Below, piece after piece: positions 14,635 to 20,134 of a stretch of 64,000 bases of DNA. The notes under the pieces are model-generated. The model did not search any database. It was given only the letters and a program-made list of their open reading frames with translations, and was not told where the DNA came from. The stretch lies in NCBI GenBank assembly GCA_947377285.1, contig CANCFT010000003.1, forward strand, positions 1 through 64,000, given 5' to 3'. The stretch's first letter is position 1; each line of letters begins with the position of its first letter. Made by a program: the position numbers and the translations under genes. Origin of the DNA: Bacteriovoracaceae bacterium (GTDB taxonomy: Bacteria > Bdellovibrionota > Bacteriovoracia > Bacteriovoracales > Bacteriovoracaceae).

Positions 14635-14841
14635 TTAAATTTCTTCTTCTTTTAAACTCTCAGTTAATATCACAATCTTTTTTTCTGCAATTGAAAGCTG
14701 ATCTTTACATTCTTTATAAAGTTTAGTTCCAATTTCAAATTGCTCTAGACTTTGTTCAAGACCAACGTCACCCGATTCTAATTTACTGACAATAGATTCT
14801 AATTCTTTTAAAGATTCTTCGAAGTTTTTTTTCTTAGTCAT
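14635..14841 (-). CDS. xseB: Exodeoxyribonuclease VII small subunit
   Basis: FEESLKELESIVSKLESGDVGLEQSLEQFEIGTKLYKECKDQLSIAEKKI. Confidence 0.94.
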   Translation of the reverse strand: MTKKKNFEESLKELESIVSKLESGDVGLEQSLEQFEIGTKLYKECKDQLSIAEKKIVILTESLKEEEI

Positions 14842-15105: not shown

Positions 15106-15939
15106 TTGAGAGAACTTTGGGTGCCTTTATCTGGTGCGATTGCTCAGCAAAGAAATGTTGAAACAATAGCTAATAATGTTGCGAATGCAAACACTCCCGG
15201 TTTTAAAAAGGAGCAAGTTGTATTTAAAGAATATTTAGCTGCACTTGAAAAGGGTGAAGCTCAAATAGATCTTCCACAAAAGGAATGGAAGCCTGAAGAT
15301 TTTTATCGCAGCTATAATGGAGAAGATTCATTTGTTAAAGTTGATGGATCTTATACGCTTCACGAACAAGGCCAACTGTCACCAACGGGCAATGCATTCG
15401 ACAATGCACTCAATGGACCTGGTTTTTTTGAAGTTTTAACACCAAATGGTGTTCGTTTTACACGCAAAGGTAACTTTAGTATTAACAATGATGGAAAACT
15501 TGTAACAGATCAGGGCTTTTTACTTTTAAGTAAACAACCCGCTCCTGTCGTTGGTGCAGATGGTAAATTAACACTCACAACTTCGCCAGAATCAAGAGCA
15601 ATTAACGTTGGAAATAATAAATTTTCAATAAATTTAGATGGTGAAGTTTTTAGTGGCCCAAATAAAACAGCAGATTTATCGCTCGTAGAATTTGCCGATG
15701 TTCATTCTTTAAAAAAAGAAGGAAATTCACTCTTTATTAATACAAATCAACTAAATGTTAAATCGGGCAATGGTAAAACAAGTGTTCATCAAGGCTTTGT
15801 TGAGCAATCAAATGTTAATGCTGTATCTGAAATGTCATCTCTAATAAATGCAAATCGAAACTTTGAATCAATTCAAAGAGTCATAAAAACATACGATACA
15901 ATGAGTGGAAAAGCCGTTAATGAAATTTCTAAATTTTAA
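15106..15939 (+). CDS. flgF: Flagellar basal-body rod protein FlgF-type (TTG start)
   Basis: IANNVANANTPGFKKEQ, LNGPGFFEVLTPNGVRFTRKGNFSINNDGKLVT; SD AGGAG 8 nt upstream of TTG. Confidence 0.87.
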   Translation: MRELWVPLSGAIAQQRNVETIANNVANANTPGFKKEQVVFKEYLAALEKGEAQIDLPQKEWKPEDFYRSYNGEDSFVKVDGSYTLHEQGQLSPTGNAFDNALNGPGFFEVLTPNGVRFTRKGNFSINNDGKLVTDQGFLLLSKQPAPVVGADGKLTLTTSPESRAINVGNNKFSINLDGEVFSGPNKTADLSLVEFADVHSLKKEGNSLFINTNQLNVKSGNGKTSVHQGFVEQSNVNAVSEMSSLINANRNFESIQRVIKTYDTMSGKAVNEISKF

Positions 15940-16028
15940 TACGTACGAGGTATAGACTGAAAAAAAGAGCAACTATAAAAATCACTCCTATTTTATTGAG
16001 TATTTTTTTATTTCCTGAAGCTAATGCC

Positions 16029-16814
16029 ATGATGAAAGCATTAAGTACGGCTGCATCTGGAATGTCTGCTCAAGAAACATACGTAAGCACTATTTCTAAC
16101 AATATTGCAAACGTTAATACTGTCGGCTTTAAGCGTGGTCGAACAGAGATTGATGATCTTGGTTATGAAACAATCCAAGAGCCAGGTGCACGTTCATCAG
16201 CATCAACTAATTATAATGTCGGAACTCAAATTGGTTCTGGAGCGAGAGTATCTGCAATAAGAAAAGAATTTACCATGGGGAGTCCGCAAATCACCAACAA
16301 TCCTTTTGACTTGATGGTAAATGGAGAAGGGTTTTTTGGAATTATTATGCCAAATGGTGAATTAAAATTTACCAGAGATGGCTCATTTAATGTTGATGCC
16401 CAGGGTGTGCTTGTTAACAAGCAAGGCTATAAAGTCTATCCTGGATTCAATTTTCCCCCAAATACTTCTAGTGTAATGATTGCTGAAAATGGAAAAGCTG
16501 AGGCATTTGTTAAAGGCCAAACTGAACCTACAAATGTCGGTCAAATTCCAGTATTTACTTTTGTTAACTCGGTTGGATTAAAATCTTCAGGGTCAAATCT
16601 CTACCAAGTTTCACTATCGAGTGGACAACCCGTTCAAGCAATTGCAGGTGAAAATAATTCTGGAGTAATTATGCAAGGAGCACTAGAAGCTTCAAATGTA
16701 AGTCCAATGGCAGAAATGACTGACCTAATTCGAGCTCAGCGTGCCTATGAAATGAACTCAAAAGTTATGGGTGTTGCAGATCAAATGATGCAGACAATTA
16801 ACAACATAAGATAA
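16029..16814 (+). CDS. flgG: Flagellar distal rod protein FlgG (conventional start; longer in-frame N-terminus possible)
   Basis: MMKALSTAASGMSAQETYVSTISNNIANVNTVGFKRGR, C-terminal EMTDLIRAQRAYEMNSKVM. ORF track starts at TTG 15996. Confidence 0.93.
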   Translation: MMKALSTAASGMSAQETYVSTISNNIANVNTVGFKRGRTEIDDLGYETIQEPGARSSASTNYNVGTQIGSGARVSAIRKEFTMGSPQITNNPFDLMVNGEGFFGIIMPNGELKFTRDGSFNVDAQGVLVNKQGYKVYPGFNFPPNTSSVMIAENGKAEAFVKGQTEPTNVGQIPVFTFVNSVGLKSSGSNLYQVSLSSGQPVQAIAGENNSGVIMQGALEASNVSPMAEMTDLIRAQRAYEMNSKVMGVADQMMQTINNIR

Positions 16815-16819
16815 ATTAT

Positions 16820-17743
16820 ATGAAGTTAAAAATTATTTTTTGCCTTTTTCTACAAATTGCTTCAACAGTGATGGCCCAAGAGGCAAACTCACCTGAACTC
16901 ACTTGCAATTTGGAATTGTATTCTAAAGTTTACAGACTAGAAATAAATCAAAACTTATCGAATGAAGATATTGTTTTCAAATCAAACTGCTCTGTTTTAA
17001 TTTTAAATAAAATTTCACAATTAATTTCAACTTCTAGCGGGACTGTTGGAACAGATTTTATAAAACGTGAAATTGCTAAAGAATTTAAAAACCAGAAAAT
17101 AGAAATAATCCCTAGAAAACTTACTTTACTAGATTTTAATTCCTCCTTAAAAGAGCTACTGACAAATAATTCGAATCTATATTTCTTAAATACAAAATCA
17201 TTAAATTCGTTAAAAAGCATTGGTCTTCTTGATGGAGAACAACTTAAAGCAAGTTGTGACAGTTGCAATAACTATGGTGAAAAAAATATAAAAGTTGATA
17301 TTTTTCGTCCCACTGAAAGTAAGTCGAGAGCACTATGGTTTTCTTCTACTGTTATGGCCAAAGTTAAAGTTTACAAGGCAAAAAGAAATTTAAGTTACCA
17401 ACAAAAATCCCTTGAAGAAGTAGATTTTTATATTGATGAAATTTTTTCAAGTAATCCTGACAACAGTTTAACTTCTTTAAATAATATACAATTCTACAAG
17501 ACTAATAAAAACATTCTTCAGGGCTCAGTCGTTTCTAACTTAGACCTGCAGCCATTGAATCTAGTTAATTACGGGACACCGGTAAGTGTAACTTTGAAAA
17601 ATCAAAACATTAATCTTCAACGAACTGCGATGCCAGCTCGTTCTGCATTTTTTGGAGAAGTCATTGAATTAAGAAATCCTAATAACAATAAAATCATTGC
17701 TGGAAAAGTTGTCGATTTTAACAAAGTGGTAATTGAATTATGA
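16820..17743 (+). CDS. flgA: Flagella basal body P-ring formation protein FlgA
   Basis: Signal peptide; C-terminal SAF-like region (VVSNLDLQPLNLVNYGTPVSVTLKNQNINLQRTAMPARSAFFGEVIELRNPNNNKIIAGKVVD); position between flgG and flgH. Confidence 0.85.
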   Translation: MKLKIIFCLFLQIASTVMAQEANSPELTCNLELYSKVYRLEINQNLSNEDIVFKSNCSVLILNKISQLISTSSGTVGTDFIKREIAKEFKNQKIEIIPRKLTLLDFNSSLKELLTNNSNLYFLNTKSLNSLKSIGLLDGEQLKASCDSCNNYGEKNIKVDIFRPTESKSRALWFSSTVMAKVKVYKAKRNLSYQQKSLEEVDFYIDEIFSSNPDNSLTSLNNIQFYKTNKNILQGSVVSNLDLQPLNLVNYGTPVSVTLKNQNINLQRTAMPARSAFFGEVIELRNPNNNKIIAGKVVDFNKVVIEL

Positions 17744-18522
17744 AAAAACACAAATTACTTTTTATACTAACAACTTTATTCATGCTTTCTTCTTGCTCTA
17801 CTTACATGAACACTATCTACAAGGATTTTGAACAGCAAGAAAGACAAAATAGTGAAGTTGATATTCCCTCAGACAGTTTTGAACAGTATCGCCATCCGAA
17901 ACGAAAAACATCTACTGAATACAATCGTGTTGACCGGACTGTAACAACAGGAAATGAAAAATCGGTTTCTCCATCAGTTAAACGACAATACAAGTCGGAA
18001 AAAGAAGCAGTTAAACGCTATACTGCAAGTGACCTTACGGATAAAGGAAGCGATGGCAGTCTTTGGGCAGGTAGCGATCCAAATGCATTTTTATTCTCAA
18101 ACAATAAAAGTAAAAACCCTGGCGATATCGTACAAATTAATGTTCTTTCAAGACTTAAAAACGAAATCACAATGGAATTAAAAAAAGCATTCCCTGATAA
18201 TCCTTATGATTCTAAGGCTCTCGCTGAGAGCAATAAGCCAACTGACTCAAAATCTCCCCCAACAGAAAAAACGACGAATGATAAAAAAGAAGGAGCAACC
18301 GATGCTGCCTCTACCGATAGCGCTCAAGATAAAATTTCTGGTGTAGTTGTCGAAGAAATAAATCGAGAACACTTGTTAATTAAAGGACGAAAAAATGTTC
18401 TTTTTAAAAATAGAAAACGGATGGTTGAAGTTCAAGCACTTGTCTCACGTAAAGACATTGGAGACAATGATACTGTAAGTTCTGATGCTATTTTAGAATC
18501 TAATGTAACTGTTGTTAGATAA
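17740..18522 (+). CDS. flgH: Flagellar L-ring protein FlgH (lipoprotein)
   Basis: Lipobox MLSSCS; GSLWAGSDPNAFLFSNNKSKNPGDIVQINVL; GVVVEEINREHLLIKGRKNVL. Confidence 0.87.
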   Translation: MKKHKLLFILTTLFMLSSCSTYMNTIYKDFEQQERQNSEVDIPSDSFEQYRHPKRKTSTEYNRVDRTVTTGNEKSVSPSVKRQYKSEKEAVKRYTASDLTDKGSDGSLWAGSDPNAFLFSNNKSKNPGDIVQINVLSRLKNEITMELKKAFPDNPYDSKALAESNKPTDSKSPPTEKTTNDKKEGATDAASTDSAQDKISGVVVEEINREHLLIKGRKNVLFKNRKRMVEVQALVSRKDIGDNDTVSSDAILESNVTVVR

Positions 18523-18533
18523 AGGATGTTCTA

Positions 18534-19538
18534 ATGAAACAAATGTTTTTAATTTTCTCGCTATTATTTTCTTCTGCTTCTTTTTCTTCTCCTAGTCGAT
18601 TAAAAGATTTGGTTACAGTTAAAGGTGTTCGTGAAAATCCAATTCTGGGTTACGGATTAGTCATTGGATTAAATGGTTCTGGAGATGCGGGCGGAGAAAT
18701 TACAAATACTTCTTTGAAAAAAATGTTTGAAAAGTTAGGCTTAAATCCAAAGACTGAAATTACTTCAAAAAACGTAGCTGCCGTAGTTGTCACAGCAAAA
18801 CTTCCTGCTTTTGCTCGCGTTGGTCAAAAACTTGATCTGGTTATCTCTTCAATTGGAGATGCTTCTTCACTTGCAGGTGGAACTTTACTAGTCACTCCAT
18901 TAAAAGGTGGAGATGGTAATATCTATGCTGTAGCTGCTGGACCTATGTCCATTGGCGGTTTAAAAAAAGGAGCTAAATTCGCAACTACGGGAACCATCCC
19001 AAGCGGAGCAACCGTTGAACGTGAAGTACTTACTGAGTTTGAAAAGAAAAACTCACTACGATTAAGTTTAAATAATCCAGATTTTACAACAGCGGCAAGG
19101 ATAGAAAAAGTTATCAATGAAGAACTTGGTGGTAAATTCGCTGCTGCTAAGGACTCAACTACAATTGATTTAGTTGTACCCGCTCAATATGAAAGAAATG
19201 TTGTTCAATTAATGGCGATTATCGAAAATTTTAGAGTCAATCCTGACACAGCTGCAAAAATAGTTATTAATGAGCGCACCGGTACGATTGTTGCGGGAGG
19301 TGATGTGACTGTTTCTCCTGTGGCCATTAGCCACTCTGATTTAACTATAGAAGTTAAAGGAGATGGTGGTGATAAAGGGGCCAAGCCTAATTCAATTTAT
19401 TATATGGATAAAGGTACAACACTTAATGAGCTCGTTAAAAGTTTAAACGCTTTTGGAGTAGCTCCGGAAGATCTTATTTCAATTTTTCAAACACTTAAGA
19501 AAGATGGCGCACTTGTTGGTGATATTGAAGTAATCTAG
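18534..19538 (+). CDS. flgI: Flagellar P-ring protein FlgI
   Basis: RLKDLVTVKGVRENPILGYGLVIGLNGSGD; NERTGTIVAGGDVTVSPVAISHSDLTI. Confidence 0.97.
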   Translation: MKQMFLIFSLLFSSASFSSPSRLKDLVTVKGVRENPILGYGLVIGLNGSGDAGGEITNTSLKKMFEKLGLNPKTEITSKNVAAVVVTAKLPAFARVGQKLDLVISSIGDASSLAGGTLLVTPLKGGDGNIYAVAAGPMSIGGLKKGAKFATTGTIPSGATVEREVLTEFEKKNSLRLSLNNPDFTTAARIEKVINEELGGKFAAAKDSTTIDLVVPAQYERNVVQLMAIIENFRVNPDTAAKIVINERTGTIVAGGDVTVSPVAISHSDLTIEVKGDGGDKGAKPNSIYYMDKGTTLNELVKSLNAFGVAPEDLISIFQTLKKDGALVGDIEVI

Positions 19539-19639: not shown

Positions 19640-20134
19640 ATGAGTGTTTCAGATGTTACAACAAATTATGGGATTGCTACCAAAAAGCAACAGTCTAAAC
19701 CGATTGATTACAAATCAATCGATGATCGAAAGTTTATTCCAAAACAATATCAAGATGTAGCAGAAAGCATGGAAAGCCAATTTGCCGAAACTATGGTTAA
19801 GCAAATGAATCAAACTATTGATGAAAATGCTGGTGACGATTCTGGAATGGATTATTACAAATCACTGCAAACTTCAGAACGTGCCAAAATGATGGCCAAA
19901 CAAAACAATTTAGGTCTTCAAAATGTTATCCTAGATCAGATTTATCCCAAGCGAATGAGAAATGAGATGGCCCTCAAGCAATACGAAGCTCAGGCCAATT
20001 TAATTCACCATAATTTGCCTAGCTACAAAATAGCTCAAAAAAATGATAAGATTGAAATAGGGCAGAATGATTCTACCCCGCAGTCTGGTAATAAAGTGAT
20101 TACTGGACAAAACTCAGAAGGAGGCTTGCCATGA
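19640..20134 (+). CDS. flgJ: FlgJ N-terminal rod-binding domain protein (no muramidase domain)
   Basis: VAESMESQFAETMVKQMNQTIDENAGDDSGMDYYKSLQTSERAKMMAKQNNLGLQNVIL. Confidence 0.8.
   Translation: MSVSDVTTNYGIATKKQQSKPIDYKSIDDRKFIPKQYQDVAESMESQFAETMVKQMNQTIDENAGDDSGMDYYKSLQTSERAKMMAKQNNLGLQNVILDQIYPKRMRNEMALKQYEAQANLIHHNLPSYKIAQKNDKIEIGQNDSTPQSGNKVITGQNSEGGLP

Follow-up and report, generated by a model that had tools for sequence, protein, structure and literature searches.

In much of the Bacteriovoracaceae, including the genome that supplied the 64,000-nucleotide (nt) stretch of DNA analyzed here (the window), the distal rod protein FlgG is likely made as a Sec precursor that joins the flagellar rod from the periplasm and not through the type III channel. 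The genes carry an N-terminal extension, a switch of start site, conservation of the extension, and loss of a docking motif; from these sequence features we infer Sec translocation, cleavage, and assembly in the periplasm. The axial proteins of the flagellum (rod, hook, and filament) are all held to exit via the flagellar type III channel and to add at the tip, and FlgG is normally exported by this apparatus without a Sec signal. In many relatives of Bacteriovorax, a predatory bacterium, our analysis points to a change of export route for a core part of the flagellum. FlgG and Sec signals are each known; no report of a Sec signal on an axial protein was found in the open-access literature searched.

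A putative signal peptide in front of FlgG

The FlgG frame of the window (plus strand) is open in the 5' direction as far as a TAA at 15933-15935. Read from the CTG at 15957, it gives LKKRATIKITPILLSIFLFPEANA followed directly by MMKALSTAASG, with the canonical ATG at 16029. No in-frame ATG or GTG lies between this TAA and ATG 16029, and the sole common in-frame start there, TTG 15996, would yield an 11-residue leader with no positive charge. The original prediction described a KKR n-region, a hydrophobic core, and an ANA site before the FlgG start, all in a frame that is open upstream of ATG 16029 and that has a GAGG 6 nt 5' of the CTG; each of these readings is borne out by the letters. The 24-residue extension has an n-region charge of +4, a maximum 9-residue KD value of 2.62, and A-N-A at -3/-1. 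By sequence, the window FlgG has the architecture of a Sec/signal peptidase I substrate, with a positive n-region, a hydrophobic core, and small residues at -3 and -1.

Table 1. Features of the flgF-flgI region of the window and their coordinates
Feature	Position	Strand	Basis or remarks
flgF (proximal rod), starting at TTG, with an intact motif FKEYL and without a signal peptide	15106..15939	+	TIGR02490, 180.6 bits (cut-off 178.5)
Shine-Dalgarno-like GAGG	15947..15950	+	6-nt spacer to CTG; AGAGG at equal spacing in L005 and L006 (CTG) and L010 (TTG)
CTG, probable FlgG precursor start	15957..15959	+	Lines up with TTG or ATG starts of relatives
Predicted Sec-type signal peptide, 24 codons, (M/L)KKRATIKITPILLSIFLFPEANA	15957..16028	+	Sequence comparison
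Putative signal peptidase I-type site Ala-Asn-Ala, adjoining the canonical FlgG start	16020..16028	+	Sequence
FlgG core, distal rod protein, mature form MMKALSTAASG...	16029..16814	+	TIGR02488
Degenerate gate-recognition motif, FlgG residues 41-45, I-D-D-L-G	16149..16163	+	Alignment; Salmonella F-E-D-L-L
flgA, P-ring chaperone, immediately 3' of flgG	16820..17743	+	Sec substrate in other bacteria
flgH, L-ring protein, lipoprotein-like N-terminus	17740..18522	+	Sec substrate in other bacteria
flgI, P-ring protein	18534..19538	+	Sec substrate in other bacteria
FlgJ-type cap (rod-binding) protein with a divergent domain and without a signal peptide	19640..20134	+	Domain match

CTG is normally weak as a start codon. 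In a gap-free alignment, its position in the window (CGAGG-TATAGA-CTG-AAAAAA) is that of the TTG start of a sister lineage, L010 (AGAGG-TTTAAT-TTG-AAAAAA). The CTG itself is common to L005 and L006 (both AGAGG-TTTAGG-CTG-AAAAAG), which also have in-frame ATGs further in. Since it aligns with a relative's TTG at equal Shine-Dalgarno spacing, translation of the FlgG precursor probably begins at CTG 15957. A CTG-initiated form or an altered start codon had been among the readings proposed at the outset, and it gains support from this alignment and from relatives that start with ATG, GTG, or TTG.

Here, we refer to flgG genes with an in-frame N-terminal extension of signal-peptide character as SP+ and to those without one as SP-. 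Of the 66 SP+ genes, 51 retain the canonical Met, among them that of the window, which has ATG ATG at 16029. A Shine-Dalgarno match of at least 4 nt precedes the canonical ATG in 55/63 SP- genes versus 5/51 SP+ genes. The original prediction had noted only a weak, distant GAAG before ATG 16029; such a match is absent in the window and in 46/51 SP+ genomes. Eight SP+ genomes (L058, L121-L125, L127, and L129) have no ATG, GTG, or TTG at FlgG residues 1-2, so that in these genomes no short cytosolic FlgG can arise by normal initiation. The window FlgG lacks the start that would be expected of an early type III substrate, placed directly at the mature N-terminus and preceded by a Shine-Dalgarno sequence.

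The protein behind the extension is FlgG. It scores 305.2 bits against TIGR02488, above the FlgG equivalog cut-off of 252.75, and its residues 26-282 align end-to-end with residues 2-258 of the Salmonella FlgG rod subunit (PDB 5wrh; E = 5.6e-63). The genome of the window (G000) has one match each for FlgB, FlgC, FlgE, FlgF, FlgG, and FlgK; a second, type III-type FlgG was sought in it and none was found. Nor did we find signal peptides on the other axial proteins examined, FlgB, FlgC, FlgE, FlgF, and FlgK; FlgK starts MADLLGIGKSG. In other bacteria, FlgA, FlgH, and FlgI are established substrates of Sec. A lost type III gate was considered as a cause of the switch and rejected, as FlhA and FlhB are intact and present once each in 18/18 genomes tested, SP+ and SP- alike, and a good alignment with solved FlhB was obtained for the FlhB of the window genome.

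A FlgJ-type cap protein without a signal peptide was found in 20/22 genomes (the window and L224-L243 among the loci), with no match in the SP+ genomes G058 and G025. It is often longer in SP+ genomes. Its rod-binding domain scores lower in SP+ (0 to 40 bits) than in SP- genomes (28 to 40 bits; P = 0.004, uncorrected for kinship), and this protein may co-vary with the export route of FlgG. On the minus strand of the window, positions 14635-14841 encode a small protein, MTKKKNFEESLKELESIVSKLESGDVGLEQSLEQFEIG, that resembles the exonuclease VII small subunit XseB.

Conservation of the extension among relatives

We compared flgF-flgG from about 119 members of the Bacteriovoracaceae and 12 outgroup genomes of the same phylum, most of them metagenome-assembled genomes (MAGs). 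The window genome belongs to genus g1 of family f1 in this set, and its nearest named relatives, with 88-96% FlgG identity, are MAGs labeled "Bacteriovorax sp." and "Bacteriovoracaceae bacterium." Of the 119 Bacteriovoracaceae flgG genes, 67 (the 66 analyzed plus that of G081, locus L223) are lengthened in frame at the N-terminus by 15-30 codons, a trait that spans about 27 genera; it is absent from the other 52 and from the rest of the phylum sampled. The extension combines a start codon with an n-region containing K/R, a hydrophobic core, and an AxA-like site that ends exactly at the usual FlgG start, as in L007 (MKKIILIIGTISFTSSAYA, then MMKAL), L056 (MKQFIALCSFFLAFNSQA, then MMRSL), L125 (MRIILLLFIFSHSSFG, then LSRAL), and L058 (MKSLNFKILFTLLAFLNFHTVQA, then QIRAL). 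SP- flgG genes begin at the canonical Met immediately after a Shine-Dalgarno sequence. Between the flgF stop and the canonical flgG start lie 40-106 nt in SP+ genomes versus mostly 5-29 nt in SP- genomes. Among 102 flgG genes of the phylum outside the family, open frames measure 239-275 codons in all but two (285 and 290); these two, L153 and L220, were inspected and are not signal peptides.

The extensions were scored with a strict home-made test requiring a start codon, a 9-residue hydrophobicity of at least 2, a net positive n-region, and small residues at -1/-3. It is passed by 55/66 extended flgG genes, by 0/63 without an extension, by 0/66 regions upstream of flgF, by 0/66 in either of the two remaining frames, and by 0.04% of shuffled upstream DNA. 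The -1 residue is A, G, S, or C in 58/66 extensions, and the -3 residue is A, V, S, T, G, L, I, or C in 61/66. Between close pairs the extension lengths stay in frame, and the extension codons are under purifying selection (pS = 0.58, pN = 0.185, pN/pS = 0.32; P = 5e-26). The FlgG core is strongly constrained (pN/pS about 0.06). Taken together, the predicted Sec-type signal on FlgG is a real, family-wide trait. Absence of a KKR...ANA-type frame from relatives had been named beforehand as evidence that would count against the original prediction, and the frame is kept in relatives.

Three related genes (L085, L086, and L101) end the predicted FlgG signal peptide in a Cys at -1 (EGFC/LMK, SGYC/LMK, and ESFC/MMK, respectively), an unusual residue before a cleavage site. 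In five SP+ loci (L024, L029, L062, L110, and L139), the open flgG frame reaches back into the 3' end of flgF, and the extension may therefore have been born in part by overprinting of flgF. Five complete-looking members of the family (G095-G099, genera g54 and g55) have no FlgG match at E <= 1e-40 and may have lost flagella.

The type III docking motif of FlgG

Early flagellar substrates dock on FlhB through a gate-recognition motif (PMC8983047). The motif deleted in Salmonella FlgE comprises residues 39-43, F-A-D-M-F (PMC10936197). FlgE 6-43 aligns with FlgG 8-45, which places the Salmonella FlgG motif at F41-E-D-L-L45. The window FlgG departs from the pattern F-x-x-x-hydrophobic, having lost both anchors (I41 and G45). 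Across SP- FlgG, residue 41 is F in 63/63 sequences and residue 45 is L, M, V, or I in 63/63. Across the 66 SP+ sequences, residue 41 is F in 32, I in 17, M in 8, S in 5, and T in 4, the residues seen at 45 include G, H, T, S, A, N, and K, and one or both anchors are lost in 46. The motif is intact in the remaining 20/66, where the type III route may persist. Residues 41 and 45 rank 1 and 2 of 261 FlgG sites in excess variability in SP+ genomes. In the paired control FlgF, there is no loss of the motif Phe (kept in 129/129 genomes), and FlgE keeps its motif in 8/8 genomes inspected. Alignment thus shows a lineage-specific loss of the predicted docking motif that affects FlgG only. At the other end of the window FlgG, DLIRAQRAYE has the I/R/Y targeting residues that correspond to I376, R380, and Y382 of FlgE (PMC10936197), although these are also structural D0 residues.

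We then turned to a tree of FlgF plus FlgG with the motif columns removed, whose resolution is limited by the short proteins. Site 41 has 10 changes on SP+ branches versus 0 on SP- branches (total length, 22.4 versus 32.0) and ranks first of 261, with a P value of 9.5e-4 that applies to a single site picked with the literature in mind and that fails correction over all 261 sites (0.00095 x 261). Site 45, with 15 changes on SP+ versus 5 on SP- branches, ranks fourth. The SP label needs about five changes on this tree, of which well-supported branches force at least two, and independent contrasts are therefore few. An independent-pairs test did not reach significance with so few switches, which is why we used the branch-count test, with its limits: the motif statistics are limited by shared ancestry, and change counts do not separate gain from loss of the signal peptide. 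A small SP+ group (L136, L137, L139, and L143) is nested in an otherwise SP- clade, apart from the large SP+ clade, and two of its members have already lost residue 45 (T and G).

A proposed Sec route for FlgG and its alternatives

We propose that the FlgG precursor would be made from CTG 15957 with a cleavable Sec signal peptide, translocated via SecYEG, and cut by signal peptidase I between ANA and MM. This cut would restore the normal FlgG N-terminus, and because it falls at the old start, the mature rod subunit would begin as before. Drawn from a pool in the periplasm, FlgG would then add to the proximal rod, bypassing the flagellar type III channel, and would assemble in the compartment of the P- and L-ring proteins encoded in the same gene run. 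FlgB, FlgC, FlgE, FlgF, and FlgK would stay on the type III route. Once FlgG no longer needed FlhB, its docking residues would be free to drift, as is seen. We consider it likely that this is a core axial flagellar protein exported by Sec instead of type III, that the distal rod is built from outside by periplasmic subunits, and that the switch took place at least once, probably more often, within a single family, with the docking motif decaying afterward.

One alternative is that these genes yield two products: initiation at the upstream start would give a Sec precursor, and initiation at the internal ATG would give a cytosolic FlgG for type III export. The retained canonical Met and the gate-recognition motif kept in 20/66 SP+ sequences would fit such an arrangement. 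It is nonetheless unlikely given the loss of the Shine-Dalgarno sequence before that Met, the eight genomes with no start codon at residues 1-2, and the absence of both motif anchors from the window. The alternative or dual-targeted form raised in the original prediction is accordingly a weaker account than a simple switch, the more so as motif decay is confined to SP+ lineages. Upstream of their motif, early type III substrates also require a hydrophobic signal at the N-terminus (PMC8983047), and the extension might be a new signal of that type or a membrane tether to the export gate. Against this stand a signal-peptidase-type site that falls precisely at the old start in one genome after another, a charged n-region, an association with loss and not gain of FlhB-docking residues, and the expectation that an uncleaved 20-residue helix would occupy the rod channel, and we think it very improbable.

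Export by Sec is in itself no proof that FlgG assembles into the rod, and FlgG could have left the rod to become a soluble periplasmic protein while another protein forms the distal rod. The core is still that of FlgG by profile score, by end-to-end alignment with the Salmonella rod subunit, and by its low pN/pS, and there is no other FlgG in the genome; this makes such a departure highly improbable. Finally, open frames are common in AT-rich intergenic DNA, and the extension could be a chance frame or, as the original prediction also offered, a relic of a displaced signal-peptide gene. The comparative data (some 27 genera, purifying selection, and the rarity of passing shuffles) refute both, leaving them practically no probability, and the same signal peptide with ATG, GTG, or TTG starts in relatives contradicts a relic in particular.

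If the Sec reading is true, the distal rod can do without delivery of its subunits to the tip, and a part of a machine has a route by which to change its export pathway. The family would also offer a natural test of which FlgG residues serve export and which serve assembly, with 41 and 45 becoming free after rerouting.

In its whole mature protein, domain order, and neighborhood (flgF-flgG-flgA-flgH-flgI), the window FlgG is like known FlgG (TIGR02488; Salmonella, PDB 5wrh and 7cgo). It differs from known FlgG in that the SP+ form has a predicted Sec-type signal peptide, degenerate anchors at 41/45, and a start moved upstream. In type of export signal it resembles FlgA, FlgH, and FlgI, whose genes lie directly 3' of flgG in the same run; these, however, are ring proteins or a chaperone and lie outside the axial channel, whereas FlgG is axial and homologous to type III substrates. 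With the early type III substrates (FlgB, FlgC, FlgD, FlgE, FlgF, and FlgG; PMC8983047 and PMC10936197), it shares homologous D0 domains; the C-terminal I/R/Y of the third export signal, which are structural D0 residues as well, are still present. Unlike them, SP+ FlgG has lost FlhB-docking anchors in 46 of 66 cases, a loss never seen in SP- FlgG.
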